From Lysobacter sp. ISL-50 (GTDB lineage Bacteria; Pseudomonadota; Gammaproteobacteria; Xanthomonadales; Xanthomonadaceae), in the NCBI RefSeq assembly GCF_018612875.1, contig NZ_JAGGRI010000018.1, forward strand, positions 62,001 through 126,000: 64,000 nucleotides of DNA, read 5' to 3'. The notes below the pieces were generated by a model. The model had not been told where the DNA came from. It saw nothing but the letters and a program-made list of their open reading frames with translations, and made no database searches. The translations under genes were made by a program, and so were the position numbers. This document shows positions 7,191 through 61,016 of the stretch, one piece after another (within the stretch, counting starts at the first letter, position 1; each line of letters begins with the position of its first letter).

Positions 7191-8090
7191 CTAGGGCGCC
7201 GCCTCGAGCGGCGCGGGGGCCGGGCCCGGCGCAGAGGACAAGACGAACGAGGGCACCCGTTCCAGTACGCCGCCGGCGTAATCGCGTTGAAACGGCAGGT
7301 CCTTGCGGTGGGCGTAGCCGATGTAGCAGTCGCAGCGCGCGTTGGGGCAGGCGCGCTGGCGCAGCCGCGCGGCGAAGCTGCCGTCGTAGAGATTGCCCAG
7401 CGGCTCGGCGACGAAATGGCAGCGGCGCACGTTGCCATCGCCGTCCACCGAGACCACGTTTTCGCCGGTCAGGCACGGCGCGCCAAGGCTGGGCGAGGGC
7501 TCTAGGTTGTAGCGGAAATGCGGGTCGATGGCCTGCAGCCGGGCGATTTGGGCATCGTCGTAGTAACCCGGCGGGCGTTCGTCGTAGGCGTTGAGCCACA
7601 GCGGCGTGGCCGCGGGCAGTTCCTGGCGCAGGGCCTCGATTTCATCCAGGTGTTCGCGCATCGCGACCATGCCGACGCTGTGGCGCACGCCGCGCCGGCT
7701 CAGTTCGCGGCAACGCGCCACGAACGCCGCGCGGCTGACCTGACTGGGGTGATACGTGCACCACAGCGCGAGCTTGTCCAGGTCGGCCTGATCGAGCCAG
7801 CGCATGCCCACGCACAGGTTGGTCTGGATCGCGACCCGGCGCAGCCGCGGCAACTGGCTCAAACGCACCAGCGCGTCGCGATAGTGGCGGCGCACCAGAC
7901 CTTCGCCCCAGGGCGTGAACAGGATCGACAACTGCATCGGCTGCTGTCCGGCCCATTCGACGAAGCGCGACAGATCCTCCGCGTCGCGGCGCAAGGCGGC
8001 GCGGGTGTCGTAGGTCTTCGCGAACGGGCAATAGCCGCAGTCGTAGTTGCAACTGCTCAGGCGGCCGCGATAGAGCAGCGACAGATGCAT
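7191..8090 (-). CDS. STM4011-family radical SAM protein
   Basis: 299 residues. The radical SAM iron-sulfur motif CX3CX2C is at Cys14, Cys18 and Cys21 (SCNYDCGYCPF). The C-terminal third has a second cysteine set (APCLTGEN, RRCHF, then ACPNARCDCYIGY) arranged like a twitch/SPASM auxiliary cluster domain, the type seen in peptide- and protein-modifying enzymes. The substrate is unknown. It starts 17 bases after the STM4012-type stop; ATG at 8090 puts the SAM motif at the expected distance. It ends in a Pro/Ala-rich tail. Family assignment is firm by motif and by neighbours; the reaction is not known. Confidence 0.88.
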   Translation of the reverse strand: MHLSLLYRGRLSSCNYDCGYCPFAKTYDTRAALRRDAEDLSRFVEWAGQQPMQLSILFTPWGEGLVRRHYRDALVRLSQLPRLRRVAIQTNLCVGMRWLDQADLDKLALWCTYHPSQVSRAAFVARCRELSRRGVRHSVGMVAMREHLDEIEALRQELPAATPLWLNAYDERPPGYYDDAQIARLQAIDPHFRYNLEPSPSLGAPCLTGENVVSVDGDGNVRRCHFVAEPLGNLYDGSFAARLRQRACPNARCDCYIGYAHRKDLPFQRDYAGGVLERVPSFVLSSAPGPAPAPLEAAP

Positions 8091-8107
8091 GTCAGCCGCG
8101 AGCACGC

Positions 8108-9490
8108 TCAGCCCAACCTGTAGTCGTGCATGCGCTCGGCGATCTGCGCCGAGGTCAGCCACGGGCCGATGGTGTCGGCGCGGGCGAGGCCGGCCAGGGT
8201 CAGTTCGATCAGGTTCTCGTCGGCCACGGCCAGGCCGAGTTCGAACAATTCGCGCAGTTGCGGCAGATCGTCCAGGCAATCGGCGCCGAAATGGCGGCGA
8301 TAGTCGGCGCGATCCAGGCCCGGGCGGATCAGCAGCGACTGGATCGCGTGCCGGCGGCGGCGATCGTCGGCGCTCAGGCGGATGCCGTAGTCGGCGCTGG
8401 CGAAGGAGGCTTCGTCGCGGGCGAGGTAGTGATCGAGTATCTCCGCGACGCTGCGCCGGGCCACGCCGTATTCGCTGGAGTAGTGCAGGGCCGAAGTGTA
8501 GGAACGCGCGCCGCAGCCGATGCCGACCATGCCGTCGCTCTGGCAGCAGTACACCGGCCCGCTCAGGTCGGGCGCGTGCGGCGCGCGGAACATGCGCATC
8601 GACACTTGGCTGTAACCGGCCGCGAGCAGGCGTTCGCGGCCGGCTTCGTACAGAGCCAGGCGATCGTCCACCGGTTCGGGCTGCAAGGCGAAACCGGCGC
8701 GCGTGCCGTGCTTGGCCTCGATCCGGCCCAGGCCGGTCAACGGGCGCACGTACAAGGGATACAGATAGAGTTCTTCCGGCGCGTGCGCCAGCGCGCTGTC
8801 GATGGACGCGAGGAAACTCTCGCGGGTCTGACCGGCGATGCCATAGATCAGGTCGAGGTTCATGGTGGCGATGCCGGCTTCGCGGATCGCGACGATCGCC
8901 TGTTCGACCACCGCGCGCTGTTGCGGCCGCACCAGCGTGCGCACTTCGGCATCGCTGAAACTCTGGATACCCATGCTGACGCGATCGATGCCGCGCTCGC
9001 GGCACAGGCGCAGTTTTTCGATATCGACGGTTTCCGGCGACACCTCGATGCCGGCGGGCACGGCCTGCAGGTCGATCGCGGCATGGCGCTCGACCAGATC
9101 GAACACGCGCCGCAATTGCCCGGCGTCGAGATAGGTCGGCGTGCCGCCGCCGAGAGCGAAGCGCACGAAGCGATGCTCGCCCAGCGCCGCCGCGGTGGCG
9201 CGCAACTGGCGTTCCATCTGCTGCAGATAGGCCGCGACCTTGGCCGGTTCCGGCCGCGCCAGCGCGAACAGATTGCAAAAGCCGCAGCGGTAGGAACAAA
9301 ACGGGATGTGCAGGTACAGGAACAAGGCGTCGCGGGGTTCGTCCGCCCACAACTGCGCCAGCGACTGCGCCGGCTGCAGCGGCCGGTACGCGGTCTTGTG
9401 CGGATAGGAATACGAGTACGCCTGATACGGCGGCAGGCGCAGCAGATCGGCGAGACGGTGCGGCGCGGCGGGTTGGGCGATGGCGTTCAT
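8108..9490 (-). CDS. STM4012-family radical SAM protein (HemN/HemW-like)
   Basis: 460 residues. The motif HIPFCSYRCGFCNLF carries CX3CX2C at Cys65, Cys69 and Cys72, as in coproporphyrinogen dehydrogenase-like radical SAM enzymes. The barrel continues with RFALGGGTPTYL (SAM-binding GGTP), SPETVDIEKL, RVSMGIQSF and LDLIYGIAGQT, all HemN/HemW landmarks. A HemN-type C-terminal region follows (about 370-460). It is not the housekeeping HemN: it lies in the STM4011-4015 cluster and has an extended N-terminus with YQAYSYSYPHKTAYR. Its ATG (9490) overlaps the upstream stop as ATGA, so translation is coupled. Confidence 0.9.
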   Translation of the reverse strand: MNAIAQPAAPHRLADLLRLPPYQAYSYSYPHKTAYRPLQPAQSLAQLWADEPRDALFLYLHIPFCSYRCGFCNLFALARPEPAKVAAYLQQMERQLRATAAALGEHRFVRFALGGGTPTYLDAGQLRRVFDLVERHAAIDLQAVPAGIEVSPETVDIEKLRLCRERGIDRVSMGIQSFSDAEVRTLVRPQQRAVVEQAIVAIREAGIATMNLDLIYGIAGQTRESFLASIDSALAHAPEELYLYPLYVRPLTGLGRIEAKHGTRAGFALQPEPVDDRLALYEAGRERLLAAGYSQVSMRMFRAPHAPDLSGPVYCCQSDGMVGIGCGARSYTSALHYSSEYGVARRSVAEILDHYLARDEASFASADYGIRLSADDRRRRHAIQSLLIRPGLDRADYRRHFGADCLDDLPQLRELFELGLAVADENLIELTLAGLARADTIGPWLTSAQIAERMHDYRLG

Positions 9491-10317
9491 GGATTGAGCA
9501 GGAAATGCGCGTAGGGCACGGTCATCACCGTGTCGTGGGCGAGGCGGTGGCCGTGATAGCCGTCCTCGCCGTAGGCGGTGCCGTGGTCGGAGCAGACGAT
9601 CGCGAACCCGCCGCCGCGCGCGCGCAAGGCCGCGAACAGCGGCGCCAGCGCGCCATCGACGTAGCGCAGCGCGGCGCAATGGCTGTCGTAGCCGTCGCGT
9701 TCGGCGCCGGGCAGGTAATGGCGATTGGGCTGGTGCAGGGCGGAGACGTTGATGAAGACGAAGCAGCGGCGGTCGCGCAGGTCGTCGCTGCGCAGGCGTT
9801 CGCAGGCGAGTGCGACTTGACGCTGGGTCGAATCGACGGCGGTGACGCCGAAGCCGGGGTTCCAGTGGCTTTCGTCGAACAGGTCTGGAAACTGCGAGCC
9901 CAGCGGATTGCGTTTGTTGAAGAAACCCACGCCGCCGATGCAGATCGTGCGATAGCCGGCATCGCGCAGGCCGGACACGATGTCGGCGCGATCGCGGAAC
10001 ACGCAGGTCCCGGCGGCGGTGGTTTCGCTGCCTTCGAAATCCAGCGCGAACAGGCGCGGATGCGGGCCCGGCCGCGCCGGCGTCGGCAGGAATCCGGCGA
10101 AGAACGCGGCATGCGCGGCATAGGTGAAGCTTCCTGGCGTATGCCGGGGTTCCCAGCCGGCCGGCGGCAGGTGTTGCGCCAGCACCGGCAGTTCGCCGCG
10201 TGCGAAGCAGCTCTGCGCGGCGTCGAAGCGCAGCGTGTCGAGGGTGATCAGCAACAGGTCGCGATGGCCGACGATGGCGCGCATGTCGGGATTGGCGAAA
10301 TGGGCGGGCTCAGACAT
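9487..10317 (-). CDS. STM4013/SEN3800-family hydrolase (alkaline phosphatase/sulfatase fold)
   Basis: 276 residues. The N-terminal strand LLLITLDTLRFDAAQ matches the first metal-binding Asp region of sulfatase/phosphodiesterase-type enzymes, and the C-terminal VCSDHGTAYGEDGYHGHR supplies the second metal site (Asp-His and a later His). There is no signal peptide, so it acts in the cytoplasm, unlike most sulfatases. Substrate unknown. It overlaps the STM4014-type gene by 8 bases and the STM4012-type gene by 4 bases, both signs of translational coupling in one operon. Confidence 0.87.
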   Translation of the reverse strand: MSEPAHFANPDMRAIVGHRDLLLITLDTLRFDAAQSCFARGELPVLAQHLPPAGWEPRHTPGSFTYAAHAAFFAGFLPTPARPGPHPRLFALDFEGSETTAAGTCVFRDRADIVSGLRDAGYRTICIGGVGFFNKRNPLGSQFPDLFDESHWNPGFGVTAVDSTQRQVALACERLRSDDLRDRRCFVFINVSALHQPNRHYLPGAERDGYDSHCAALRYVDGALAPLFAALRARGGGFAIVCSDHGTAYGEDGYHGHRLAHDTVMTVPYAHFLLNP

Positions 10318-11464
10318 GGGCCGCCTCGGCGATGTGGCGGGGTGGATGGGCCGGGTGGGCCGCCGGCATGCGGGCTTGATCTTGGTAGGTGCTCAGTCCC
10401 TGCCATTGCAGGTTCAACAGCAAGTCGCCGAAGGCGTTGGCTTCGAGTATCCAGGCGTGGCCTTCGCGCAGGATCAGGTCGAAGCCGATCATGCGGCTGC
10501 GCGCGAATGCCGCCGCGGCGCGTTCGGTGGCCGCATCCAGCGCGCGCATGGCGTCGGCATCGAGCCAGTCGCTCAGCTCGGCGCGGCGATTGCCCAGATG
10601 CAGATTGGTCAGCGGCGCGCGGCCGATCCGGGCGATGCGATGGCGCGCGCGTCCGTCCAGAGCGATGACGCGGATGTCGTAGTGACCGGCGCCGCCGTCC
10701 GGCGCGCACGGCTTGGCGATCCAGCGTTCGGCATAGGCTTCCTGCGCGGCGACCGCGTCGATCAACTGCGCGATCCGGTGGCCGTCGCGGTAACGTCGCG
10801 GCCGCAGCGAGTTGAATACCCGCACCGCGGCCTCGCCGGACGATCCGGTTTCGACCAGTTCGGCCGAGCCGTACAGCGCTTCGCCGCCTTGGCGATTGCA
10901 GCGATAGGCCAACACTCCGGCGCCGGAGGAGCCATAACGCGCCTTGACGAACACCTGCGCGCAGGCGTGTTCGCGCATGAATTCGCGCAAGTGCGCGTAG
11001 CCGTCGATGCGGCCTAGCAGCGGCGCGGCCGACACGTCGTGCGCGCGCAGGCGCTGCTGGCAGGCCAGCTTGTCGCTCATGGCGGCGATGTCATCGGGCG
11101 GGTTGAGATAATTCGCCTGCGCCGGCAGGGCATCGAGCAGATCGCGGAATCCGGCGAACCAGTAGTGCTGATACGCGAGCTCACCATGTTCCAGCTCGCG
11201 CGGACGCGGTGCGGGTTCGCCGAGCCGGCGCCAGCCGCGCTCGATCAGCGCCGCATGCAGGCGCGGCGCTTCTCCGGGCGATTCGACCTTGACCAATGCA
11301 CGCGGCCGCCGCGCGATCGCCTCAAAAGCGAGGCCGGGATCGTCGAGCAAGGCCTCGTAATGCAGTTCCTCGGCCGCGCCCAGGCCGCGCTCGCGCAGGG
11401 CCTGTTGCAGCCCCCGGAGCCGGCGGCTGCCGCGTGGGCCGATCAGCAGCCAATCGGCGGGCAC
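10310..11464 (-). CDS. STM4014-family protein, ATP-grasp-like
   Basis: 384 residues from a GTG at 11464, 3 bases after the STM4015-type stop. Features resemble an ATP-grasp ligase: an N-terminal domain (WLLIGPRGSRRLRGLQQAL), a lid-start SDKLACQQRLRAHDVSAAP, the phosphate-binding VFVKARYGSSGAGVLAY, YDIRVIALDG, and the metal-binding GFDLILREGHAWILEANAFG, which parallels the D...E-x-N signature of RimK and D-Ala-D-Ala ligase relatives. If active it would join a carboxylate to an amine or thiol using ATP. Motifs are seen; activity is inferred. Confidence 0.83.
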   Translation of the reverse strand: MPADWLLIGPRGSRRLRGLQQALRERGLGAAEELHYEALLDDPGLAFEAIARRPRALVKVESPGEAPRLHAALIERGWRRLGEPAPRPRELEHGELAYQHYWFAGFRDLLDALPAQANYLNPPDDIAAMSDKLACQQRLRAHDVSAAPLLGRIDGYAHLREFMREHACAQVFVKARYGSSGAGVLAYRCNRQGGEALYGSAELVETGSSGEAAVRVFNSLRPRRYRDGHRIAQLIDAVAAQEAYAERWIAKPCAPDGGAGHYDIRVIALDGRARHRIARIGRAPLTNLHLGNRRAELSDWLDADAMRALDAATERAAAAFARSRMIGFDLILREGHAWILEANAFGDLLLNLQWQGLSTYQDQARMPAAHPAHPPRHIAEAAHV

Positions 11465-11467
11465 GGC

Positions 11468-12379
11468 TTACTCGGATACGGCGACGTAACGGTCGCCGTC
11501 GTCCTCGTCTTCATGGTCGTCGAGCACCACCGTGCACGGCAGCGCCTGCAGTTTCTGCTGCCACGGCGGCGAGATGTAGTGATGGCTCAGGTCGATGCGC
11601 TCGATCGTGCCCAGGTGCGGGCTTTCGGCCAGCGCTTGCGCGCCGGTGTCGCCGATCGTGCCAAGCGACAGGTCCAGGGTCTGCAGCGATCCCAGCCACG
11701 GCTGCTGCGCCAGCCACACCGCCAGCTCGTCGCTGATTTCCGAGTCGCGCAGGCCCAGGTAACGCAGCCGCCGCGGGTCGATCTTGGCGAGCAGGTTCTG
11801 ATACGGGCCGATGCCGCCGTCGAAGCCGTAGCCGTCGCTGCCCAGCCACAGTTCCAGGTGATTGAGCGCCGGCAGGGTCGAGGCGGCGATGGCGTCGACG
11901 ATGTTCGAGGGCAGGCCACCGCATTCGATCGCCAGTTCTTCCAGCGCATCGTGCTGGAACGCCTGCAGTTCCAGATTGGTGGAGCCGCGCACGCGCAGCG
12001 ACTGCAGATTCGGGAACGCCGCCAGCAGCGGGTTGTACGAGGTCTGGATGATCCAGGAGATCTCGCAGTCTTCGTAGGTCATGTCGCCGATGAACAGGGC
12101 TTTGAGCGCGGGCAACTGCGCGCGGCGCTCGACCAGGGCATCGAGATAGCCGCCCGGGCCTTCTTCCTGCGCCTCGCTCCACGCGCCGATGATCAGCGCT
12201 TCGAGCCGGGACGGATCGACCTGCGACAGAAAGTTGTCGAGCAGGTCGCGCTGGCTTTCGGCGCTGTCGTAATCCTGGGTCAGGCGATAGACCACGTCGC
12301 CGCCGGCGGGCGTGTCGCCCATGCTGAAGTTGACGACGCGTTTGCCGCGGTAGATCTGCGAGTATTCGCCGATGGTCAC
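11468..12379 (-). CDS. STM4015-family leucine-rich-repeat-like protein
   Basis: 303 residues. The second half has irregular leucine-rich repeats: LPALNHLELWLGSD, RLRYLGLRDSEIS, LQTLDLSLGTIGDTGAQAL, IERIDLSHHYIS. The N-terminus (VTIGEYSQIYRGKRVVNF) and acidic C-terminus (DDHEDEDDGDRY) flank them. There is no signal peptide. It probably binds a partner protein or serves as the substrate-recognition part of the cluster; no catalytic motif is visible. The GTG at 12379 is chosen because AAGGAG lies 6 bases before it; an ATG at 12427 further upstream has no ribosome site. First gene of the five-gene operon. Confidence 0.83.
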   Translation of the reverse strand: MTIGEYSQIYRGKRVVNFSMGDTPAGGDVVYRLTQDYDSAESQRDLLDNFLSQVDPSRLEALIIGAWSEAQEEGPGGYLDALVERRAQLPALKALFIGDMTYEDCEISWIIQTSYNPLLAAFPNLQSLRVRGSTNLELQAFQHDALEELAIECGGLPSNIVDAIAASTLPALNHLELWLGSDGYGFDGGIGPYQNLLAKIDPRRLRYLGLRDSEISDELAVWLAQQPWLGSLQTLDLSLGTIGDTGAQALAESPHLGTIERIDLSHHYISPPWQQKLQALPCTVVLDDHEDEDDGDRYVAVSE

Positions 12380-12435
12380 GTGGGGCTCCTTGCCTGCATC
12401 TGCTGAAGAGAGCGCCAGCATAACCAAGGTCCCGG

Positions 12436-12495
12436 CTTATGTGGGAGGGGCTTATGTGGGAGGGGCTTATGTGGGAGGGGCTTATGTGGGAGGGG
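12436..12495. repeat. tandem repeat, four 15-base units
   Basis: Four identical copies of CTTATGTGGGAGGGG, the outer edge of the REP arm that begins at 12481. The last copy is part of the palindrome, so three extra copies seem to have arisen by duplication of its left end. Confidence 0.9.
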
Positions 12496-12583
12496 CTTCA
12501 GCCCCGATGCTTTTCTCTCAGAGCTATGCAGTTATGCGACTGCTGAGCGAAAAGCATCGGGGCTGAAGCCCCTCCCACATAAG
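12481..12583. repeat. REP-type paired inverted repeat (BIME-like)
   Basis: Perfect 35-base inverted repeat: 12481-12515 and 12549-12583, core TGGGAGGGGCTTCAGCCCCG, separated by 33 bases. The arms also contain a small internal palindrome (GGGGCTTCAGCCCC), the usual structure of REP units. It lies between the operon start at 12379 and the permease stop at 12633. A related element is at 40271-40362. Confidence 0.85.
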
Positions 12584-12620
12584 CCAAGCAACATAAGCCA
12601 AGCAACATAAGCCAAGCAAC
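12579..12620. repeat. tandem repeat, three 14-base units
   Basis: Three copies of ATAAGCCAAGCAAC starting inside the right REP arm, followed by a degenerate fourth (AAAAGCCAGG). It mirrors the tandem growth seen at the left edge of the same element. Confidence 0.85.
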
Positions 12621-12632
12621 AAAAGCCAGGCG

Positions 12633-50732: not shown

Positions 50733-51773
50733 ATGTTCGGAAAAAAGAACGTAACTCCGCAGGTGGAAAACGCCATCGCCAAGGCGGCCAACTTCGAGGT
50801 CACCGTTGCCGATCTGGCCCGGCGCAGCGAGAAGCGCGCATGGATCGTCGCGTTTACGTCCATCGTGATGGCGCTGATCCTCGCAGGCGGCTATTTCTAC
50901 TTCCTGCCCTTGAAGGAAAAAGTCCCGTATCTGGTCATGGCGGACGCCTACACCGGCACGGTCACGGTCGCGCGGCTGCGCGACGACTTCAGCAAGAACA
51001 GCATCACCTCCAGCGAGGCGATCAACAAGAGCAACATCTCTCACTTCGTGATGGCGCGCGAATCCTACGATTACTCGCAGATCGGCGACCGCGACTGGGC
51101 GACGGTGTTCGCGATGGGTTCGCCCTACGTGACCAAGTCCTACGAGAACGTATACCTGGGCTCGAACCCGCAGAACCCGATCACCTTGTTCGGCAAGAGC
51201 AAGACGATCCGCGTGCGCATCCTCAGCATCCAGCTGCATGCCGCCGCCGGCGACAGCGCGGTCAAGACCGCTTCGGTCCGCTTCCAGCGCAGCTTGTTCA
51301 ACAAGGAAAGCGGCACCCAGCTTCCGATCGACAGCAAGATCGCGGCGATCGAATACACCTACAAGTCCAACCTGAAGATGGACGAGACCAATCGCGTCCT
51401 CAATCCGTTGGGCTTCCAGGTCACCAGCTACCGCGTGGACAACGATTACGCGCCGTCGCCGCCGGCCGCCCCGGAATTCCCGGTCGGCTCGCCGCCCGCC
51501 GCGGGCGGCGTCCCGGCTGCGGCCGCGCCGGCGATCGATCCGGCCACCGGCCAGCCCATCCCTGGCGCGGCGCCGGCTCCGGCCGCGTATCCGCCCGGCA
51601 CCGTCCCACCCCAACAGCCCGGTGTCGCGCCGCAACCAGGCGTTGCGCCGCAGCCAGGTGTCGCGCCGCAACCCGGCGTGGCGCCGGCCCCGAATCCCGC
51701 CAGTCCGGCCGGCGCGCCGACGGCACCTGCACCCGCACCGACCGGTACTGCGAATGGAGTCAGCACCCGATGA
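50733..51773 (+). CDS. virB8: T4SS inner-membrane protein VirB8 with Pro-rich repeat tail
   Basis: 346 residues. Cytoplasmic N-terminus, one membrane span (about 38-60, IVMALILAGGYFYFLPL), then the periplasmic NTF2-like VirB8 domain (YLVMADAYTGTVTVARLRDD, FVMARESYDYSQIGDRDWAT, KTASVRFQRSLFN) to about residue 240. The last ~100 residues are Pro/Ala-rich and include four tandem QPGVAP units. The tail is longer than in standard VirB8 (~230 aa). Its stop overlaps virB9 as ATGA. Confidence 0.93.
   Translation: MFGKKNVTPQVENAIAKAANFEVTVADLARRSEKRAWIVAFTSIVMALILAGGYFYFLPLKEKVPYLVMADAYTGTVTVARLRDDFSKNSITSSEAINKSNISHFVMARESYDYSQIGDRDWATVFAMGSPYVTKSYENVYLGSNPQNPITLFGKSKTIRVRILSIQLHAAAGDSAVKTASVRFQRSLFNKESGTQLPIDSKIAAIEYTYKSNLKMDETNRVLNPLGFQVTSYRVDNDYAPSPPAAPEFPVGSPPAAGGVPAAAAPAIDPATGQPIPGAAPAPAAYPPGTVPPQQPGVAPQPGVAPQPGVAPQPGVAPAPNPASPAGAPTAPAPAPTGTANGVSTR
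51615..51686 (+). repeat. coding tandem repeat in virB8 (four 18-base units)
   Basis: Four in-frame copies encoding QPGVAP with synonymous differences between units (CCCGGT, CCAGGC, CCAGGT, CCCGGC), so the protein repeat is kept while the DNA diverges. Confidence 0.9.
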
Positions 51774-52543
51774 ACTGCTTGCGTAAACACAGTCTGATCG
51801 CCCTGTTTTTGTTGGCGCTCTCCGGTCTGGCCCTGCCTGCCTCAGCGCAGGTGGTGCAGGAATACGAGTACGAATCCAACCGCATCTACCAAGTGCGCAC
51901 CGGCCTGGGCATCACCACCCAGATCGAACTGAGTCCGAGCGAGAATATCCTCGACTACAGCACCGGTTTCAGCAGCGGCTGGGATCTGAGCCGTCGCGAC
52001 AACATCTTCTACTTGAAGCCGAAGAACGTTGACGTCGACACCAACATGATGATCCGGACGACGACCCACTCGTACATCCTGGAACTGAAGGTGGTGGCGA
52101 CCGACTGGCGCGTGCTCGAGCAGGCCAAGCAGGCCGGCGTGCAGTACAAGATCAAGTTCGTGTACCCCAACGGCACCGAGTTCTCCGCGGCCAAGGAGGC
52201 CAGCGAAGAAGACCAGCCGATGACGGAGTTGAACACGCGGCTCGACAAGAACCGCCTGTACAACTTCGAGTACCAATACTCCAGCCGCAAGAAGCAATCC
52301 TGGCTGGTGCCCAGCAACGTGTACGACGACGGCCAGTTCACCTACATCAAGATCAGCGGGCTCAAGAACCTGCCGACCGGCAACTTCCCGGCGGTGTTCG
52401 GACGCGAGCGCGAAAGCGGTGAAGACTTCGTCGTCAACACCACGGTCGAGGGCAACACCATCGTGGTTCACGGCACGTACCCCTACTTGATCATCCGTCA
52501 CGGCAACAACGTCGTCGGTCTGCGCAGGAAGAAGCAGAAATGA
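51770..52543 (+). CDS. virB9: T4SS outer-core protein VirB9
   Basis: 257 residues. Signal peptide (LIALFLLALSGLALPASAQ), N-terminal domain (RIYQVRTGLGITTQIELSPS, IFYLKPKNVDVDTNMMIRTT) and C-terminal domain (PSNVYDDGQFTYIKISGLKN, IVVHGTYPYLIIRHGNNVVG) that binds VirB7 and VirB10 in the outer membrane ring. ATG overlaps the virB8 stop and its own stop overlaps virB10. Confidence 0.95.
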   Translation: MNCLRKHSLIALFLLALSGLALPASAQVVQEYEYESNRIYQVRTGLGITTQIELSPSENILDYSTGFSSGWDLSRRDNIFYLKPKNVDVDTNMMIRTTTHSYILELKVVATDWRVLEQAKQAGVQYKIKFVYPNGTEFSAAKEASEEDQPMTELNTRLDKNRLYNFEYQYSSRKKQSWLVPSNVYDDGQFTYIKISGLKNLPTGNFPAVFGRERESGEDFVVNTTVEGNTIVVHGTYPYLIIRHGNNVVGLRRKKQK

Positions 52544-53778
52544 GCCAGAACATGCCTCCCAATCAGCCGGGTCAGCCCGAAGGAAACAACGGCACTCCGC
52601 AGGAAGGCGGCAGCTACGGCTACGCCGGCGCCAATCCTTACTACGGTCAGCAGGGCGGCGGGGCCGCCGCGCCGGACCTGGACGCCAACGCGCCCATGCT
52701 CAAGAGCAGCGATGTGCAGCGGTTGAACCGCAAGGCGCTGCTGTTCCTCGGCGCCATCGTGCTGCTGTTGCTGGCGGCCGCGTTCTTCCTGCTCAAGAGC
52801 GCTACTTCTGGTGACGACGAGCCGAAGAAAGTCGACGAGGAAGTCGTGACCGTGCCGGACGCACCGGTGGGCGCGCAGTCCACGGCGCTGCCGCCGTTGC
52901 CGCCGCCGACCGTGGCGGCCGAACCGATCGGCATGGTTCCGCCGCTGCCGCCGGAACAGCCGGAGTCGCAGGGCAACGTCGCCGAAGCCGAACCGCGTGA
53001 TCGCGGTCCGAGCCTGCTCGAACGCCGCATGGCGGGCGAGGTGGGTTCCTCCGGTGGTGGCCAGGGTGGCGAAAATTCGGCGATGACGCCCAGCCAGCAG
53101 TATCTGGCGATGGTTGCGGCGCAGAACGGGCAGGGCGGTCAGGCGGCACAGCCGGAGAAGCCGGAAGTCGCATCGGCGCAGCCGCTGTACAACCCCGACA
53201 CGCTTTTGCTGCGCGGCACGTACATCCGCTGCATCATGGAAACCCGCATCATCACCGACATCCCGGGCTTCTCGTCGTGCGTGGTGACCGAGCCGGTGTA
53301 TTCCGTCAACGGCCGTCGCCTGCTGCTGCCGAAGGGCTCGAAGGTATCCGGTCGTTACCAGGGCAACGCCGGCGACCTCAAGCGCGTGGCCGTGCTATGG
53401 GATCGCATCACCACCCCGACCGGCCTGGACGTGAACATGGCCAGCCCGGGCATCGACGGCCTTGGCGGCGCGGGCATCCCGGGCCAGTACGACGCGCATT
53501 GGGGCAGCCGCATCGCCTCGGCGCTGCTGATCAGCCTGATCAGCGACGCATTCAAGTACGCGGCGGCGGAAAACGGTCCGGAAAGCACCACCGTGACCCA
53601 GGGCGGCACCGTGATCACCCAACCGTATGAGAGCAACACGGCGCGGGCGATGGAACGTCTGGCCAACCAGGCGCTGGACAAGAGCGTCAACCGTCCCGCG
53701 ACCGTCACCATTAACCAGGGTTCGGTGGTGAATATCTACGTCGCCAAGGACGTGGACTTCTCCTCGGTACTGCGCTGA
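52540..53778 (+). CDS. virB10: T4SS core protein VirB10
   Basis: 412 residues. A Gly/Pro-rich cytoplasmic N-terminus, one membrane span (about 66-86, LLFLGAIVLLLLAAAFFLL), a Pro-rich linker (ALPPLPPPTV, MVPPLPPEQPE) and the TrbI/VirB10 beta barrel (LLLRGTYIRCIMETRIITDI, GRRLLLPKGSKVSGRYQGN, SRIASALLISLISDAF). It spans from inner to outer membrane. ATGA overlap with virB9; virB11 starts 1 base after its stop. Confidence 0.96.
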   Translation: MSQNMPPNQPGQPEGNNGTPQEGGSYGYAGANPYYGQQGGGAAAPDLDANAPMLKSSDVQRLNRKALLFLGAIVLLLLAAAFFLLKSATSGDDEPKKVDEEVVTVPDAPVGAQSTALPPLPPPTVAAEPIGMVPPLPPEQPESQGNVAEAEPRDRGPSLLERRMAGEVGSSGGGQGGENSAMTPSQQYLAMVAAQNGQGGQAAQPEKPEVASAQPLYNPDTLLLRGTYIRCIMETRIITDIPGFSSCVVTEPVYSVNGRRLLLPKGSKVSGRYQGNAGDLKRVAVLWDRITTPTGLDVNMASPGIDGLGGAGIPGQYDAHWGSRIASALLISLISDAFKYAAAENGPESTTVTQGGTVITQPYESNTARAMERLANQALDKSVNRPATVTINQGSVVNIYVAKDVDFSSVLR

Positions 53779-53779
53779 G

Positions 53780-54820
53780 ATGGATTCGGATAATTCACCG
53801 ATCGCACAGGTTTCCAACGACTTCCTGGAGTATCAGTACCAGGTGCTCGGCATCCTGGAGTACATGAGTTCTCCGGATGTCACGGAAATCTGCATCAACC
53901 GGCCGGGCGAGCTGTACCTGGAAACCCGCGCCGGTTGGGAGCGTCTGGAAGTGCCGAGCCTGACCTACGATCGGGCCCGGCAGTTCTGCACCGCGGTGGT
54001 CAACGAGAGCAACACCGGGCAGCGCATCACCGATGCCGACCCGGTGGTCTCTCTGACCTTCCCGACCGGCCAGCGCGCCCAGTTCGTGATCCCGCCGGCC
54101 TGCGACTCGGGCAAGGTCTCGATCACCATCCGTCTGCCGTCCAAGCACAGCAAGACCTTGCAGCAGTACCAGGAAGACGGCTTCTTCGAGCAGATCCTGG
54201 AGACCACCGCATCGGTCAGCGAGCACGACCGCGAGCTGCTGGAGATCCGCGCTCAGCGCAACTACGCCGAATTCTTCAAGAAAGCGGTGCAGTACAAGAA
54301 GAACATCGTCGTCGCCGGCGCCACCGGCAGCGGCAAGACCACCTTCATGAAATCGCTAGTTGGTCACATTCCTGACTACGAGCGGCTGGTCACGATCGAA
54401 GACGCGCGCGAGCTGTTCATCACGCAGCCGAATGTCGTGCACTTGCTCTACTCGAAAGGTGGACAAAGCACGAGCAACGTCACGGCCAAGAGTTGTATGG
54501 AAGCGTGCCTGCGCATGAAGCCGGACCGGATCATCCTGGCCGAGTTGCGCGGCGACGAGTCCTTCTACTTCATCCGAAACTGCGCGTCCGGTCATCCAGG
54601 TTCCATCACCAGCTGCCACGCTGGCAGCACGACGCAGACTTGGGACCAGTTGTCGCTGATGGTGAAGGCCTCGGCCGAGGGGTCCGGCCTGGAGTTCGCG
54701 GTGATCAAGCGTTTGTTGCAGCTGACGATCGATATCGTCGTGCACATCAAGGCCCATGCGGGACAGCGCTATATCACCGGCATCGACTTCAGTCCGGAGC
54801 GCCAACTGGCGGCGAATTGA
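53780..54820 (+). CDS. virB11: T4SS ATPase VirB11
   Basis: 346 residues, hexameric traffic ATPase on the inner face of the membrane. Walker A GATGSGKTTFMK (Lys186), Asp box TIEDARELFI, Walker B-like RIILAELRGDE, His box GSITSCHAGS. N-terminal domain with ITEICINRPGE-type sequence (DVTEICINRPGELYLETRAG). All catalytic motifs intact. A 142-base gap follows before virB1. Confidence 0.96.
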   Translation: MDSDNSPIAQVSNDFLEYQYQVLGILEYMSSPDVTEICINRPGELYLETRAGWERLEVPSLTYDRARQFCTAVVNESNTGQRITDADPVVSLTFPTGQRAQFVIPPACDSGKVSITIRLPSKHSKTLQQYQEDGFFEQILETTASVSEHDRELLEIRAQRNYAEFFKKAVQYKKNIVVAGATGSGKTTFMKSLVGHIPDYERLVTIEDARELFITQPNVVHLLYSKGGQSTSNVTAKSCMEACLRMKPDRIILAELRGDESFYFIRNCASGHPGSITSCHAGSTTQTWDQLSLMVKASAEGSGLEFAVIKRLLQLTIDIVVHIKAHAGQRYITGIDFSPERQLAAN

Positions 54821-54962
54821 CGACAGCCGGGCAGGGGTTTCGTTGACAAAGCTGGCTGCCGCGTGAATGATTACGTCGGCGACTTGGGTTCGCAGCCCCG
54901 CCGGTATCCGTTTAATAGTGAAAGGAATTGTTGCCAGGATTGGCGCAGGGGGGGACTAGGGA

Positions 54963-55805
54963 ATGTTGCCCGGTATAGAACTGACAAATTGCACGGGCTT
55001 GGCGGTTCCGCACGAAGTGATGCATCACGTCGTGCGCGTGGAGTCGTCCTTCAATCCCTATGCCATAGGCGTGGTGGGCGGCCGTCTGGTGCGCCAGCCC
55101 AAGACCCTGCCCGAAGCCGTCGCCACCGTGCGCATGCTCGAACGCCGCGGCTACAACTTTTCCCTCGGCGTCGCCCAGGTCAATCGTTACAACCTCGGCA
55201 AGTACGGCCTGGACTCCTACGAGAAGGCGTTCGAGGTCTGCCCCAATCTGCAGGCCGGCTCGCGCATCCTGGCTGAGTGCTATCAGCGTTCGCAGGATTG
55301 GGGTAAATCCTTCAGCTGTTACTACTCCGGCAATTTCGTCACCGGCTTCCGCCACGGTTACGTGCAGAAGATCTACGCCTCGATGCGCGACAACCAGGCC
55401 CTCGGGGCCGGTGTCGAAGCCATCGCGGTGATCGGCGATCCCAAGCAGCCTTCCAGCGGCATGAAGGCGGCGGCGATGGCGCCGGTCTCGGCCGCGATCT
55501 ATGCGCCGGCCCGTCGCAGCGGTTCGTCGCGCATGGACGCCCTGATCGCCTCGCGCGTGCGTGAGCCGGACACCGCCGCGACCCAGGCCGCCGCTTCGGC
55601 GCTGGTGGCCGCGTCCGCCCAGCCTTCCAACCTTGCCGCGGCGATGCCGATGGCGGCCCCGCCGGCGCCGATCGCGCCCGTGGCCGCCGCCGTGCCTCAA
55701 CCGCAGCAACCGGTCACCGTCTCGCTGGCAAGGCCGGGCGTAACCAGCAACGCGCCGGCGCAAAAGCCGCCTTCGCAAGGCGGCGACCAGGCCTTCGTCT
55801 TTTGA
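54963..55805 (+). CDS. virB1: T4SS lytic transglycosylase VirB1
   Basis: 280 residues. The N-terminal ~150 form the SLT domain: catalytic Glu27 in VVRVESSFNPYAIGVVGG, then NFSLGVAQVNRYNL and FSCYYSGNFVTGF. It opens peptidoglycan for channel assembly. The rest is Ala/Pro-rich and disordered. No signal peptide is visible at the N-terminus (MLPGIELTNCTGLAVPHEVM), so export may depend on the secretion complex or another route. ATG at 54963 follows a G-rich stretch. Confidence 0.9.
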   Translation: MLPGIELTNCTGLAVPHEVMHHVVRVESSFNPYAIGVVGGRLVRQPKTLPEAVATVRMLERRGYNFSLGVAQVNRYNLGKYGLDSYEKAFEVCPNLQAGSRILAECYQRSQDWGKSFSCYYSGNFVTGFRHGYVQKIYASMRDNQALGAGVEAIAVIGDPKQPSSGMKAAAMAPVSAAIYAPARRSGSSRMDALIASRVREPDTAATQAAASALVAASAQPSNLAAAMPMAAPPAPIAPVAAAVPQPQQPVTVSLARPGVTSNAPAQKPPSQGGDQAFVF

Positions 55806-55932
55806 TCCGCTTCCGGTTGAATCCATTTCCAGCATTTGAATCCGCATCGATCCGAACCCGTTTCGCCTCCACCGACCGCATCACCCACGTACCTAGCTCG
55901 ACTACGCCCACAACGAACAGAAGGGATATCTC

Positions 55933-56301
55933 ATGAACTCCAACATTTATTTCAAGAACTTCCTGTCGGCCTTCGCCATGGCCACCGCTTTCGTCGTCCT
56001 GCTGATGCTGCCGGAAGTCGGCTTCGCTCAGACCGACGCCAAGAGCCGTGTCAGCAACTTCTTCACCAATCTGAATTCGCTGCTGAACATCGCCTCGATC
56101 GCCGTCGTCACCATCGCGGTGATCTTCGCCGGCTACAAGATCGCGTTCGCGCACAGCAAGATCTCCGACGTCGCCCCGGTTCTGATCGGCGGCTTCCTGA
56201 TCGGCGCTTCGGCCCAGCTGGCCAAGATGGTCATTCCGGACGATTCCAAGCTGAATGAAGGCGGCACCGCCATCATGATGATCCTGCAGAACTATGCATA
56301 A
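55933..56301 (+). CDS. virB2: T4SS pilin VirB2
   Basis: 122 residues. Long signal peptide (FLSAFAMATAFVVLLMLPEV, cleavage after GFAQ), then two hydrophobic helices (LLNIASIAVVTIAVIFAGYK; VLIGGFLIGASAQLAKMV) of the mature pilin. AQTDAKSRVSNFFTNLNS marks the mature N-terminus. ATG at 55933; it overlaps virB3 by 8 bases. Confidence 0.93.
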   Translation: MNSNIYFKNFLSAFAMATAFVVLLMLPEVGFAQTDAKSRVSNFFTNLNSLLNIASIAVVTIAVIFAGYKIAFAHSKISDVAPVLIGGFLIGASAQLAKMVIPDDSKLNEGGTAIMMILQNYA

Positions 56302-56602
56302 AAACGTGCTCTTCCGGGGTTGTACGCGCCCGCCCATGTTCCTGGGCGTGCCGTACGTCCCGTTCGTGTTCGGAGCGGGCAGCTGCCTGCTGATCACGTT
56401 CTACGCAAATATGTATTTCATAGTTTTGCTGCCCGTCGTGATCTTCATCATGCGTCAGATGGCGCGTCGCGACGAAATGATCTTCCGCCTGCTCGGCTTG
56501 CGTCTGCAGTTCCGTTTCAGAATGCGGAACCTGCAGCAGCATCAGGGCATGTGGGTGTTCACGCCTAACTACTATCGCAATCCGGGCGACAAGAAAAGCT
56601 GA
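56294..56602 (+). CDS. virB3: T4SS inner-membrane protein VirB3
   Basis: 102 residues: VLFRGCTRPPMFLGVPYVPF is the VirB3/TrbD start, followed by two hydrophobic segments and the cytoplasmic MRQMARRDEMIFRLLGLRLQ. It works with VirB4 in pilus assembly. The start codon lies within virB2. Confidence 0.92.
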   Translation: MHKNVLFRGCTRPPMFLGVPYVPFVFGAGSCLLITFYANMYFIVLLPVVIFIMRQMARRDEMIFRLLGLRLQFRFRMRNLQQHQGMWVFTPNYYRNPGDKKS

Positions 56603-56731
56603 TGATGACCGTAGCCGCCATGCGTTCGCGCATGGTGGCTGCGGCCGACTCAGGGCCGTGCATTAGCAGGCCCCGTCATCGGCAGCGACACCCGATTCGT
56701 TTCCCACCTCAACGGATACGCCAGCCTCTTC

Positions 56732-59188
56732 ATGTTCACACCCGATACCCCCATCAGCGAATTCATCCCGCTGTCCACGCATGTGGCGCCCACCGTGCTC
56801 AAGACCACCGGTGGCGATTTCCTGATGGTGTGGCGTCTGGGCGGTCTGCCGTTCGTCGGCCGTGAAGAGTGGGAACTCGAACACCGCCACAACACCTTCA
56901 ACCGGTTGCTGCAGACCCTGCGCGCGCCGGATTTCACCAACGTGGCGTTCTGGGTGCACGACCTGCGCCGTCGCCGCCGCATCAAGACCGAAACCAAGTT
57001 CGATCAGCTCTTCAACCAGGACTTGTCCGACGGTTACTTCGCCTCGTTGTCGGCGCAGAAGCTGATGCAGAACGAGCTGTACCTGACGATGATTTTCCGC
57101 CCGATCGTCGGCAGCAAGCGTTTCGTCGAGAAGTCCACCAGCACGCAAAGGCTGCAGGACGAGCAGGACGAGGCAATCAACAAGATCCAGGAACTCGCCG
57201 GCAACGTCGAGGCGGTGATCAAGGACTATGCGCCGGTCCGCCTGAGCATGTACGAAGCCAAGAACGGCATCGTCTTCTCCGAGGCCCTGGAGTTCTTCGG
57301 CTATCTGCTCAACCGCCTGGACGAGCCGGTGCCGGTGCTCAACGCGCCGGTCTACAACTACCTGCCGGTCAGCCGCCTGACCTTCTCGGCCAAGAGCGGC
57401 GACTTCGTCGTGACCACGCCGACCGGCGCCAATCATTTCGGCGCCATCCTCAATATCAAGGAGTTTGCCGAGGGCACCTATCCCGGCATCCTCAACGGTT
57501 TGAAGTATCTCGATTTCGAGTACGTCATTACCCATTCCTTTAGCCCCATGGGCCGTCAGGACGCGCTCAAGGCGCTCGACCGCACCAAGGGCATGATGGT
57601 GTCCTCCGGCGACAAGGCGGTCAGCCAGATCGTCGAGCTCGACTACGCGATGGATCAGCTCGCCTCGGGCAACTTCGTGCTCGGCGAGTACCACTTCACC
57701 TTCGCCGTCTACGCCGAAAGCCAGGAGAAGCTCTCCGCGCAGATCGCGGCCGCGCGCGCCGAACTGTCCAACGCCGGCTTCGTCTCGGCCAAGGAAGACC
57801 TCGCGGTCACCGCGTCCTTCTATTCGCAGTTCCCGGGCAACTGGAAGTACCGCACCCGCCTGGCCAACGTCAGCTCGCTGAACTTCCTCGGCCTGTCGCC
57901 GCTGCATAACTTCGCCACCGGCAAGCAGCACAACAATCCCTGGGGCGACAGCGTCACCACGCTGCAGACCACTAACGGCCAGCCGTACTACTTCAACTTC
58001 CACGCCACTCATCCGGCCGAGAATTCGCTCGGTGAGAAAGCCATCGCCAACACCATGGTGATCGGCAAGTCCGGTACCGGTAAGACCGCGCTGATCAACT
58101 TCCTGCTCAGCCAGGTGCAGAAGCTCAAGCCGACGCCGACCATCTTCTTCTTCGACAAAGACCGTGGCGCCGAGATATTCGTGCGCGCCTGCGGCGGCAA
58201 CTATCTCGCCCTCGACAACGGCCAGCCGACCGGCTTCAACCCGTTCCAGTGCGAGAACACAGAGGAAAACGTCCAGTTCCTCTCGGACCTGATCAAGGTG
58301 CTGGCCGCCAAGGGCCAGTATTCGGCGCGCGAGGACGAAGACATCCACCGCGCGGTCGAGAACATCCTCGACACGCCGGTGCACCTGCGCAGCATGACCA
58401 ACCTGCAGAAGAGCCTGCCCAACATGGGCGACGACGGCCTCTATGCGCGCCTGCGCAAGTGGACCGCGGGCAATTCGCTGGGCTGGGTGTTCGACAACCC
58501 GGTGGACACGATCAACCTGGAAAAGGCGAACATCATCGGGTTCGACTACACCGAGGTGCTCGACAACGCCGAAGTCCGCGTCCCGGTCATCAACTATTTG
58601 CTGCACCGTCTGGAGCAATTGATCGACGGCCGCCCGCTAATCTACGTCATGGACGAGTTCTGGAAGATCCTCGACGGCGGCGGCGCCCTCAAGGATTTCG
58701 CCAAGAACAAGCAGAAGACCATCCGTAAGCAGAACGGCCTGGGCATTTTCGCCACGCAGAGCCCGGAAGATGCGCTGGCCAGCGACATCTCCGCTTCGCT
58801 GATCGAACAGACCGCGACGCTGATCCTGTTGCCGAACCCGAACGCAAGCCGCGACGACTACATCGAGGGCCTCAAGCTCACCGATGCCGAGTTCGAAGTG
58901 GTGCGCAGCCTGGACGAGCGTTCGCGCTGCTTCCTGGTCAAGCAAGGCCATGCGGCGACGGTGTGCCAGCTCAACCTGCGCGGCATGGACGACGCCCTGG
59001 CGGTGATCTCGGCTTCGACGGACAACATCGAAATCATGCATTCCGTTCTGGAAAAGGCCGCCGCCAAGGCAGGCGTCACCCAGGACAACCTGACCCCCGA
59101 GCAGTGGCTGGCCGATTTCTACGCCAATCGCAAGGGCTCGGGCAAGGGCAAGGCGGTCTCCGCGGACGCACGGACGGAGCGAGCCTGA
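56732..59188 (+). CDS. virB4: T4SS ATPase VirB4
   Basis: 818 residues, the usual VirB4 size. N-terminal domain to about 400 (PTVLKTTGGDFLMVWRLGGL), then the RecA-like core: Walker A VIGKSGTGKTALINFLLSQ (Lys451), FFFDKDRGAEIFVRACGG, Walker B LIYVMDEFWKIL, and GIFATQSPEDALASD. It powers pilus biogenesis and substrate transfer. ATG at 56732 is the first possible start; 129 bases separate it from virB3 and hold nothing recognisable. Confidence 0.95.
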   Translation: MFTPDTPISEFIPLSTHVAPTVLKTTGGDFLMVWRLGGLPFVGREEWELEHRHNTFNRLLQTLRAPDFTNVAFWVHDLRRRRRIKTETKFDQLFNQDLSDGYFASLSAQKLMQNELYLTMIFRPIVGSKRFVEKSTSTQRLQDEQDEAINKIQELAGNVEAVIKDYAPVRLSMYEAKNGIVFSEALEFFGYLLNRLDEPVPVLNAPVYNYLPVSRLTFSAKSGDFVVTTPTGANHFGAILNIKEFAEGTYPGILNGLKYLDFEYVITHSFSPMGRQDALKALDRTKGMMVSSGDKAVSQIVELDYAMDQLASGNFVLGEYHFTFAVYAESQEKLSAQIAAARAELSNAGFVSAKEDLAVTASFYSQFPGNWKYRTRLANVSSLNFLGLSPLHNFATGKQHNNPWGDSVTTLQTTNGQPYYFNFHATHPAENSLGEKAIANTMVIGKSGTGKTALINFLLSQVQKLKPTPTIFFFDKDRGAEIFVRACGGNYLALDNGQPTGFNPFQCENTEENVQFLSDLIKVLAAKGQYSAREDEDIHRAVENILDTPVHLRSMTNLQKSLPNMGDDGLYARLRKWTAGNSLGWVFDNPVDTINLEKANIIGFDYTEVLDNAEVRVPVINYLLHRLEQLIDGRPLIYVMDEFWKILDGGGALKDFAKNKQKTIRKQNGLGIFATQSPEDALASDISASLIEQTATLILLPNPNASRDDYIEGLKLTDAEFEVVRSLDERSRCFLVKQGHAATVCQLNLRGMDDALAVISASTDNIEIMHSVLEKAAAKAGVTQDNLTPEQWLADFYANRKGSGKGKAVSADARTERA

Positions 59189-59298
59189 CCCTGGATGGGA
59201 CAGGGGTCCGTTCTAAAGAGATAGCAAGGCACTGACGGTATCGCTGTAAACCGTTCCAGGTTGGGATGCCGGGGCGGCCACTCAAGGAGAGTCGAACG

Positions 59299-60105
59299 AT
59301 GCACTTCAAATCATCCGCCTGGCCCTTGCTCTGTTCGCTGCTGCTCGGCGTTTGCGCGCTGTTGGCGCCGCGCCCGGCGGCGGCGCAATGCATGTACGAC
59401 TTCACGTACACGCAGACGTTCTACGGCGCCTGCATGACCCAGATCACCCAGGGTCTGAATAATATCGAATGGGTCACCGACACGATGACCCAGATCCAGA
59501 AGTACACCTCGTGGCAGGACCAGCTGAAGAAGCAGAACGAGCGCTTCGAGCAGTTGCGTTCGGGCGCTTCGCAGATCACCGAACTGGCCGGCAATCGGGA
59601 CAAGATCGATGGCCTCAAGGAACGCGGTGAGGAAGACGGCGTCGCGGACGTGTGCGGAAAGAACAAGGGCAGGAGCTACGTCGCCGATGAGCAGTACCTG
59701 CTTTGCCAGGCCCGGCAGCGATTGGTGAACAAGCGCTTCAACGTGCTGGTGAAGATGTTCAAGGATGCGGAGACCCGCGACAAGAAGATCCAGGACATCC
59801 GCTCAAACCGCAGCGGCATCAGCGGCGCCAAGGACAGCGGCCGGCTGATCGGCAACACCAACGCCAATATGCAAATGCGCGCGTCGACCAAGAACGACTC
59901 GCAGAATTACATAATGACGATGGAACTCTATACATCGATGATCGCCGCGCTTGACGAGGAGATCGCGAGGAGCGCGGAGAAGGCGCTGACGGGCAAGGGC
60001 GCCGACAAGAAAGGGCCGTTCAATTTGCCGCCTATCGTGGGCTCGGTAGCGCAGGGGCTGACTCTGAAAGTCGCCTTGGCCGCCGCCAGATCCCGAGACC
60101 TCTGA
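59299..60105 (+). CDS. virB5: T4SS VirB5-like minor pilin, copy 1
   Basis: 268 residues. Signal peptide (WPLLCSLLLGVCALLAPRPA, cleavage before QCMYD), then QITQGLNNIEWVTDTMTQIQ, a helical middle and the conserved end FNLPPIVGSVAQGLTLKVAL ... ARSRDL. VirB5 sits at the pilus tip. The next gene is clearly a paralogue. ATG at 59299 follows AAGGAGA; the upstream frame to 59266 is ignored. Four Cys in the first ~150 residues of the mature protein suggest disulfides. Confidence 0.85.
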   Translation: MHFKSSAWPLLCSLLLGVCALLAPRPAAAQCMYDFTYTQTFYGACMTQITQGLNNIEWVTDTMTQIQKYTSWQDQLKKQNERFEQLRSGASQITELAGNRDKIDGLKERGEEDGVADVCGKNKGRSYVADEQYLLCQARQRLVNKRFNVLVKMFKDAETRDKKIQDIRSNRSGISGAKDSGRLIGNTNANMQMRASTKNDSQNYIMTMELYTSMIAALDEEIARSAEKALTGKGADKKGPFNLPPIVGSVAQGLTLKVALAAARSRDL

Positions 60106-60154
60106 ACGCCGGGCGATACCGGATTACCGTCTTTCATATTCAAGGATTCCGATC

Positions 60155-60928
60155 ATGAAGCACACTTCCTCTCAGTCCCTCCACTCTCTGGCGTTGAGCC
60201 TGGCCGTGGCCGCATCGTTCGGCCTGATCGCGTTGACGCCGATGCCGGCGCATGCGATCTGGGCCTCCGAAATCACCCAGGGCATGAACAATGCCGAGCT
60301 GGTGGCTTCGACGAAGAAGCTCAAGGATCAGTACGACAGCCTCATGGATCAGCTCAACACGCTGCAGAAGCAGTACGACCAGCTGAATCCGGGCAACTTC
60401 AATCTCGGTGCGATCACCGGCTTCCGCGACAACAACGCCGAATTCAAGGAGCGTGCGCTCAATTACGGCGAGGAAGTCTGCGATAACGCCCGCAACGATG
60501 CGGCGACGCAGCAGAAGCAGATCTGCACCAAAGCCGTGGAAATTCGCAACCGGCGCTTCAATGCGATGGTCAAGATGCTCAAGGACGTGAAAACGCGCGA
60601 CGGCGAAATCAAGAAGCTGTTGGACAAGCGCAAGACCTTGACCGCGGCGAAGGATAAAGGCCAGCTGGACGCGAACACCAACGACATCGCTCGTCTGCAG
60701 GCGCAGATGGAAAACGATATCCAGAACGGCAAGTACACCTTGGACACCTATACGGTGATCCTGACCACCTTGAACGAAGACATGGCCGCGACTGCCAAGC
60801 AAGTCCTGACCGGCAAGGGTGGCGCCAAGAAGGATTCGCCGTTCAGTCTGCCGCCGATCGTGGGTACGGCCTTGCAGGGTCTTGCGCTGAAGGCCGCGCT
60901 AGCCGGCGCGCGTACTCGAGATCTTTGA
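60155..60928 (+). CDS. virB5: T4SS VirB5-like minor pilin, copy 2
   Basis: 257 residues. Signal peptide (LHSLALSLAVAASFGLIALT, cleavage after AHA), then SEITQGMNNAELVASTKKLK, coiled-coil (LMDQLNTLQKQYDQL) and the same ending as copy 1: SLPPIVGTALQGLALKAALA ... ARTRDL. The middle region (LCQARQRLVNKRFNVLVKMF in copy 1, QICTKAVEIRNRRFNAMVKM here) is also parallel. ATG at 60155 follows AAGGA. Confidence 0.85.
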   Translation: MKHTSSQSLHSLALSLAVAASFGLIALTPMPAHAIWASEITQGMNNAELVASTKKLKDQYDSLMDQLNTLQKQYDQLNPGNFNLGAITGFRDNNAEFKERALNYGEEVCDNARNDAATQQKQICTKAVEIRNRRFNAMVKMLKDVKTRDGEIKKLLDKRKTLTAAKDKGQLDANTNDIARLQAQMENDIQNGKYTLDTYTVILTTLNEDMAATAKQVLTGKGGAKKDSPFSLPPIVGTALQGLALKAALAGARTRDL

Positions 60929-61016
60929 TTCCGACTGCCCGCGCCCCAGGCGCGGCGGCAGCTAATGCATAACACCAGGCGAACCTATGGGTTCGCCGAT
61001 GGAGACGGAAAGACGT

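Follow-up and report, generated by a model that had tools for sequence, protein, structure and literature searches.

What do five adjacent genes do whose families carry placeholder names in records of Salmonella, Streptomyces, Deinococcus, Paenibacillus and Methylobacterium? The question is raised by a 64,000-nucleotide stretch of the Lysobacter sp. ISL-50 genome (hereafter the window; contig NZ_JAGGRI010000018.1, positions 62,001 to 126,000), in which members of the families STM4015, STM4014, STM4013, STM4012 and STM4011 follow one another in this order on the minus strand. They encode a leucine-rich repeat (LRR) protein, an ATP-grasp ligase, a hydrolase and two radical S-adenosylmethionine (SAM) enzymes. 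We found that the gene set forms one unit, that STM4015 ends in a nearly invariant glutamate, that STM4014 is related by sequence profile to LysX and RimK, ligases acting on a C-terminal glutamate, and that the cysteine motifs of both radical SAM enzymes are invariant. STM4015 is probably the precursor or carrier of the pathway, and we see an even chance that the gene set specifies a modification pathway tethered to this carrier, with the C-terminal glutamate of STM4015 as its reaction site.

A sequence-only reading of the locus had described five genes on one strand that belong to one uncharacterised pathway. Re-reading of the coordinates confirmed that all five are intact and spaced as it had described, with a gap of 3 bases between STM4015 and STM4014, an overlap of 8 bases between STM4014 and STM4013, an ATGA overlap between STM4013 and STM4012 and a gap of 17 bases between STM4012 and STM4011. 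The gene identities it had proposed also stood, since all five proteins score above the NCBIfam cut-offs of their families, and the pathway can still be called uncharacterised in that the Creative Commons (CC)-licensed PMC text yielded no member of any of the five families with a characterised role; the second refutation named by the sequence-only reading, a characterised enzyme of a known pathway among the five, was thus not encountered in that text. PMC3844500 tabulates STM4013.S among sigma54 binding sites, and the positive-selection study PMC2784778 includes STM4015 in one of its tables. The families are already catalogued as hypothetical; what is new is the reading as a carrier or precursor system and the accessory genes described below. 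The set occurs once in the assembly (5.9 Mb in 72 contigs), and the closest named relatives of its STM4011 are from Lysobacter (86 and 85% identity).

For the analysis of linkage, we fetched 80 loci with flanks of up to 10 kb, the best 80 of 526 relatives in a pattern scan; every locus was found through STM4011, and the sample is skewed to Gammaproteobacteria, Betaproteobacteria and Actinomycetes. All five genes were present in the order 4015-4014-4013-4012-4011 on one strand in 74 of the 80 loci, and five of the six incomplete loci (L040, L051, L064, L073 and L107) had just 0.9-2.1 kb of DNA upstream of STM4011. A Thermocatellispora locus (L072) was without STM4014, which was located on another contig, where a 116 aa open reading frame (ORF) just before the displaced gene (genome G354) matched the C-terminal part of STM4015 with 24 bits and has RPFVVVGE as its last residues. 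Among 246 genomes from the class of an actinomycete, 31 carried STM4015 above the cut-off, and the identical 31 carried STM4011 above its cut-off (Fisher p 4.5e-40, uncorrected for kinship). The five genes are one system, because both the order of the genes in the 74 loci and the shared presence of STM4015 and STM4011 in the same genomes are maintained; the rare co-occurrence that the sequence-only reading had named as its own refutation is not what these genomes display.

The distribution across bacteria is patchy. STM4015 was present in 17 of 60 genomes comprising the window's own and its relatives; among 299 genomes spread over the phylum 2 matched, and only the window's genome did so above the cut-off. 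Of 199 genomes from the phylum of a Gemmataceae locus, 3 had STM4015 above the cut-off. A plasmid collection contained 14 matching records. We also looked for an E. coli carrying the Salmonella operon, and the E. coli collection gave no match at the sensitivity of megablast.

The terminal glutamate of STM4015

The STM4015 gene (11468..12379, minus strand) has a GTG start and encodes 303 aa, with a score of 319.9 bits against NF038076 (cut-off 275). Its C-terminal tail RYVAVSE is encoded at 11471..11491, ends in Glu303 and is followed by the stop codon at 11468-11470. A terminal glutamate was present in 165 of the 167 distinct sequences scoring at least 150 bits in all loci, a family limit that we chose ourselves, with RYVAVxE as the typical tail; the two that lack it come from the vicinity of a contig end (L156) and from a fragment with a premature stop (L184). 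The corresponding numbers were 126 of 127 ORFs in our first set, where the exception was a 26-bit LRR match outside the family, and, after enlargement of the set, 153 of 154 distinct sequences, where the exception was L156; ORFs that lack a start codon upstream of the match (L026 among them) were omitted from the enlarged set. Only 3 of the 25 weaker matches (<150 bits) end in glutamate, all of them pieces of the family (L167, L130 and L118), and the remaining 22 end in ten different residues. L167 and L130 are short or cut family copies and L118 is a remnant, and another of the weaker matches, with Ser as its last residue, is probably a decayed copy in L171. The latter locus (genome G653) contains a decayed copy of the operon, in which STM4014 and STM4011 are fragmentary and the end of STM4015 is broken.

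The remainder of the tail is patterned, with Tyr or Phe at position -6 in 151 of the 154 sequences, Val at position -3 in 138, and mostly Ser, Gly, Ala or Thr at position -2. An alignment of 91 sequences had six invariant columns, of which one is the terminal glutamate and the others lie within the LRR body; this alignment was drawn from 105 dereplicated sequences, all ending in glutamate, by omission of 11 from plasmid loci and of L063:5074, L096:5756 and L099:5907. The stretch from H267 to the end is acid-rich and varies in length from 35 to 54 residues. An artefact of the overlap between the STM4015 stop and the STM4014 start could be rejected as the cause of the conserved residue, since glutamate is kept in the 154 sequences whether STM4014 overlaps (46), follows after a gap (51) or is not called next to STM4015 (57), and since the glutamate codon and stop have six spellings. 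The glutamate is likewise kept by STM4015 copies for which the fetched DNA contains none of the other operon genes (L141-L145, 11-12 kb; L146, 3.5 kb).

The copy numbers of the LRR protein and of the last enzyme differ. At a threshold of at least 100 bits, 57 of the 80 loci contained a single STM4015 and 16 contained two; one locus had three copies, another had five, and the 5 loci without any are at contig ends. In whole genomes, 17 of the 31 operon genomes had 2-5 STM4015 matches, as compared with a single STM4011 in each of the 31. The multiplication of STM4015 beside a single STM4011 fits a substrate on which one set of enzymes acts, although receptors and scaffolds may be duplicated as well.

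The AlphaFold2 (AF2) model of STM4015 has a mean predicted local distance difference test (pLDDT) value of 96.6. Its best Foldseek match is 2ra8 (template modelling (TM) score 0.81), an uncharacterised Bacteroides fragilis homologue, followed by general LRR proteins. The entry 2ra8 (Q64V53_BACFR) is a solved homologue of STM4015; it differs in an N-terminal extension and in its label, 'uncharacterized', and its native sequence ends in YPMITE, followed by 8 added residues. No paper naming 2ra8 or Q64V53_BACFR was found in the CC-licensed PMC text.

The four enzymes

The ATP-grasp protein STM4014 (10310..11464, minus strand; GTG start, 384 aa; NF038074, 313.1 bits, cut-off 175) appears closest by sequence profile, through partial matches, to ligases that act on a C-terminal glutamate. 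The best matches in a profile search of the PDB were 1uc8 and 1uc9 (both LysX) and RimK, with E-values of 2.3e-05 for 1uc8 ('lysine biosynthesis enzyme') and 6.7e-05 for RimK 5zct; the score against the RimK-family model was 16.9 bits, the cut-off being 143.4. Using the AF2 model (mean pLDDT 93.0), Foldseek placed LysX, ArgX-LysW and LysX/ArgX with LysW-gamma-AAA at ranks 2-5, the graspetide ligase PsnB at ranks 8-12 and RimK-RpsF at rank 22. Two alignments were made, with 65 and 58 of 66 rows, and in the 58 sequences of the second K132, K174, D263, R265, R279, N287, D329, E341 and N343 are invariant; judging from their motifs, these presumably have catalytic roles. In an Embleya locus (L031), STM4014 and STM4013 share one stop-free frame and may be made as a single protein, a point in favour of the pathway proposed below.

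STM4013 (9487..10317, minus strand; 276 aa; NF038075, 384.8 bits, cut-off 250) is a hydrolase of the alkaline-phosphatase superfamily. It matches the Pfam Sulfatase model with 26.4 bits (cut-off 25) and Phosphodiest below the cut-off, and the profile search of the PDB ranked the nucleotide pyrophosphatase/phosphodiesterase 2gsn (1.2e-06) first and sulfatases next. D27, T65, H69, D244, H245, H257 and H261 are invariant in the alignment (36 of 39 sequences). Thr65 is likely to be the nucleophile, and its invariant presence in place of the sulfatase Cys motif suggests that the substrates are phosphate-type esters.

The first of the two radical SAM enzymes, STM4012 (8108..9490, minus strand; 460 aa; NF006067, 578.1 bits, cut-off 380), contains the motif CX3CX2C at residues 65-72, with C65, C69 and C72 invariant in an alignment of 43 of the 51 dereplicated sequences. 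In the profile search of the PDB, HemN (1olt, 1e-56) was closer than the methylase NocN (9p2u, 3.5e-36). The second, STM4011 (7191..8090, minus strand; 299 aa; NF038073, 378.4 bits, cut-off 200), has the invariant CX3CX2C residues C14, C18 and C21 (30 of 37 sequences aligned) and likely holds an auxiliary iron-sulphur cluster, because five further cysteines, C206, C224, C248, C253 and C255, are also invariant. Positions 192-277 of its profile match the C-terminal region of the peptide maturase SkfB (6efn, 2e-05); despite this match and the five cysteines, there was no match to the Pfam SPASM model.

Accessory genes and surroundings

To the sequence-only reading no short precursor had been obvious, and this holds for short ORFs: when the five core families, DUF6745 and its partner were masked and the ORFs of 30 representative loci were clustered, the widest cluster was found in 5 of the 30 loci and corresponded to a major facilitator superfamily transporter, and the next in 4. 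The statement overlooks the nearly invariant glutamate-ended tail of the LRR protein itself, whose features are substrate-like. The sixth gene for which a search had been proposed exists in part of the sample. DUF6745 and a protein of ~100 aa were both present in 36 of the 80 loci, and the pair also stands near the operon in L024, L025, L028, L055 and L115, though DUF6745 is absent from the genome of the window. Library matches of the two proteins were to the Pfam model DUF6745 and, both below the cut-off, to LRR-effector and DUF7092. The small partner has conserved His and Glu residues (three sequences) with TGHxH and HEEH-like motifs, and a profile search with it gave no match in the PDB.

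DUF6745 matches of >300 bits were found in 17 of the 246 genomes, all 17 within the 31 operon genomes and on the same contig, <2 kb from the STM4015 or STM4011 match. Above the Pfam cut-off there were 23 of the 246 genomes, of which the six with weaker best matches (34-107 bits) comprise five without the operon and one operon genome; the broad DUF6745 family is therefore not confined to the five-gene system. The parts of the system are evidently separable, because in genome G054 they are split between contigs, with the small partner protein, DUF6745 and STM4015 together and no STM4014-4011 in 14 kb, and STM4011, STM4012 and STM4013 on another contig.

Several other loci depart from the common layout. 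A Bacteroides finegoldii plasmid (L030, 6758-10775) retains STM4013 and STM4012 as remnants only, and its STM4011 has a C-terminal extension that, judging from its motif, is probably HAD-like; in Salmonella (L027) an annotated HAD-IIB gene lies directly 3' of STM4011. A Calothrix plasmid carries an STM4015 whose tail ends in glutamate (L029, 2014-3288); the plasmid as a whole lacks STM4014, and none of the remaining operon genes is present within L029. A comparison of eight proteins with PADLOC for known anti-phage defence gave one partial match only, of STM4012 to PDC-M51A (34.6 bits).

Upstream of the operon in the window (12434-12631) there are 15-base direct repeats, 14-base repeats and a 43-base inverted repeat (98% complementary), resembling an extragenic element of the repetitive extragenic palindromic (REP) type, and the 30-base core occurs in 2 copies in the window, each an arm of the inverted repeat. 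At 50840-62138 the window contains type IV secretion genes (CagX, TrbI, a type II/IV secretion ATPase, CagE/TrbE/VirB and TrbL) with falling G+C content, followed at 62160-63567 by two DUF4189 proteins.

A proposed pathway, its alternatives and known systems

In the pathway that we propose, STM4015 would be a folded LRR scaffold presenting its C-terminal heptapeptide, with the last glutamate as the reaction site. STM4014 would activate a carboxylate of this residue and join an amine, which could be an amino acid or else a small molecule with an amine group, a step that we propose because amino-group carriers with a C-terminal glutamate are loaded likewise, via the gamma-carboxylate, according to a passage in PMC9303977. 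STM4012 (HemN/class-C-methylase-like) and STM4011 would then perform radical chemistry on the loaded group or on the tail, and STM4013 would remove or transfer a phosphate-type ester. We infer the glutamate's role as substrate, the identity of the amine and the order of the steps, and the product might be either released from STM4015 or retained on it. With the last STM4015 residue named as a likely reaction site, the operon is open to direct mass measurement on one purified protein and, if the proposal is true, LRR proteins would join the few known ribosomal carriers and the two radical SAM enzymes would gain a definite substrate context. We give less than an even chance to the wider idea of a new class of biosynthesis or protein modification tethered to LRR scaffolds, in which the ATP-grasp enzyme loads the C-terminal glutamate, an undescribed group is built on it by the two radical SAM enzymes, several paralogues of the scaffold in a genome share one enzyme set, and DUF6745 (LRR-like in some lineages) and the small conserved-His protein act along with them where present.

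Several observations speak against this pathway. The profile matches of STM4014 in the PDB are weak and partial, and its top Foldseek match is DcsG (6jil), the D-cycloserine synthetase, a small-molecule ligase, with a D-Ala-D-Ala ligase at rank 6 and TM-scores of only ~0.4-0.54. STM4015 is an LRR protein of 303 aa and not the small LysW-type fold of the amino-group carriers. A release peptidase was not conserved in the flanks of the 30 representative loci, the rest of the genomes not having been searched. DUF6745 and its partner likewise have conserved last residues (Thr in 39 of 42 and Asp in 40 of 41, respectively), so that this kind of conservation can have other causes. Finally, AF2 predicts an ordered tail (mean pLDDT 96 for residues 291-300 and 89 for residues 301-303), which may for this reason be a docked or structural element.

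One alternative is chemistry akin to that of ribosomally synthesised and post-translationally modified peptides, in which the radical SAM enzymes and STM4014 would cross-link, methylate or cyclise tail residues to yield a permanent protein-bound group or a peptide that is cleaved off later. The pattern at positions -6 and -3, the resemblance of STM4011 to part of SkfB and the presence of PsnB among the structural matches of STM4014 are all consistent with this, but the glutamate alone is near invariant, the last 12 positions contain no conserved Cys, Lys or Thr, and a protease is not conserved in the flanks of the 30 loci; we consider this explanation doubtful. Quite unlikely, in our estimate, is a docking or structural role, with the glutamate seated in a pocket, either on STM4015 itself or on a partner, with STM4015 serving as scaffold or regulator, and with STM4014 joining free small molecules into an amide in the manner of DcsG. 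The predicted order of the tail and the first rank of DcsG would agree with such a role, as would the 351 of 362 chain residues of 2ra8 in the structure library, by which much of the tail is perhaps visible, whereas the sequence-profile ranking of STM4014 favours LysX and RimK, the linker joining body and tail is variable, and STM4015 is multiplied beside a single STM4011. A tetrapyrrole pathway with STM4012 as coproporphyrinogen oxidase or heme chaperone is highly improbable, since STM4012, although it matches the HemN and HemW models and the HemN structure 1olt, stays below both cut-offs (145.9 against 324.95 bits and 146.5 against 205.4, with 578.1 for its own family) and no role in heme synthesis is evident for its partner genes.

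We do not count the five-gene set among the LysW systems, the pearlins or the graspetides, because a defining feature of each was looked for and is absent here. RimK adds to a protein C-terminus, that of ribosomal protein S6 (RpsF), and STM4014 is related to it by both sequence profile and fold; the differences are the score far below the RimK-family cut-off, the LRR partner and the radical SAM partners. With the graspetides, as represented by PsnB, the system shares the ATP-grasp fold of STM4014 and a proposed ribosomal substrate, but no Thr, Ser or Lys acceptor is conserved in the last 12 positions of STM4015 beyond the small residue at -2. The pearlins (3-thiaglutamate and 3-thiahomoleucine) are made on the C-terminus of a ribosomal carrier and undergo radical SAM tailoring, as a passage in PMC9303977 describes, and a similar logic is proposed here; the present system has an ATP-grasp enzyme, no PEARL-type (LanB-like) peptide aminoacyl-tRNA ligase among the five proteins and no further widely conserved gene. 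From the amino-group carrier pathways (LysW with LysX/ArgX; Vzb22) the proposed carrier-tethered pathway differs in using radical SAM enzymes and a phosphodiesterase-like hydrolase for the modification, with no peptidase conserved in the flanks. It shares with them, as far as the same passage of PMC9303977 outlines that pathway, a carrier that ends in glutamate and is encoded together with other modifying enzymes and with an ATP-grasp enzyme, here one whose likeness to LysX and RimK is partial.

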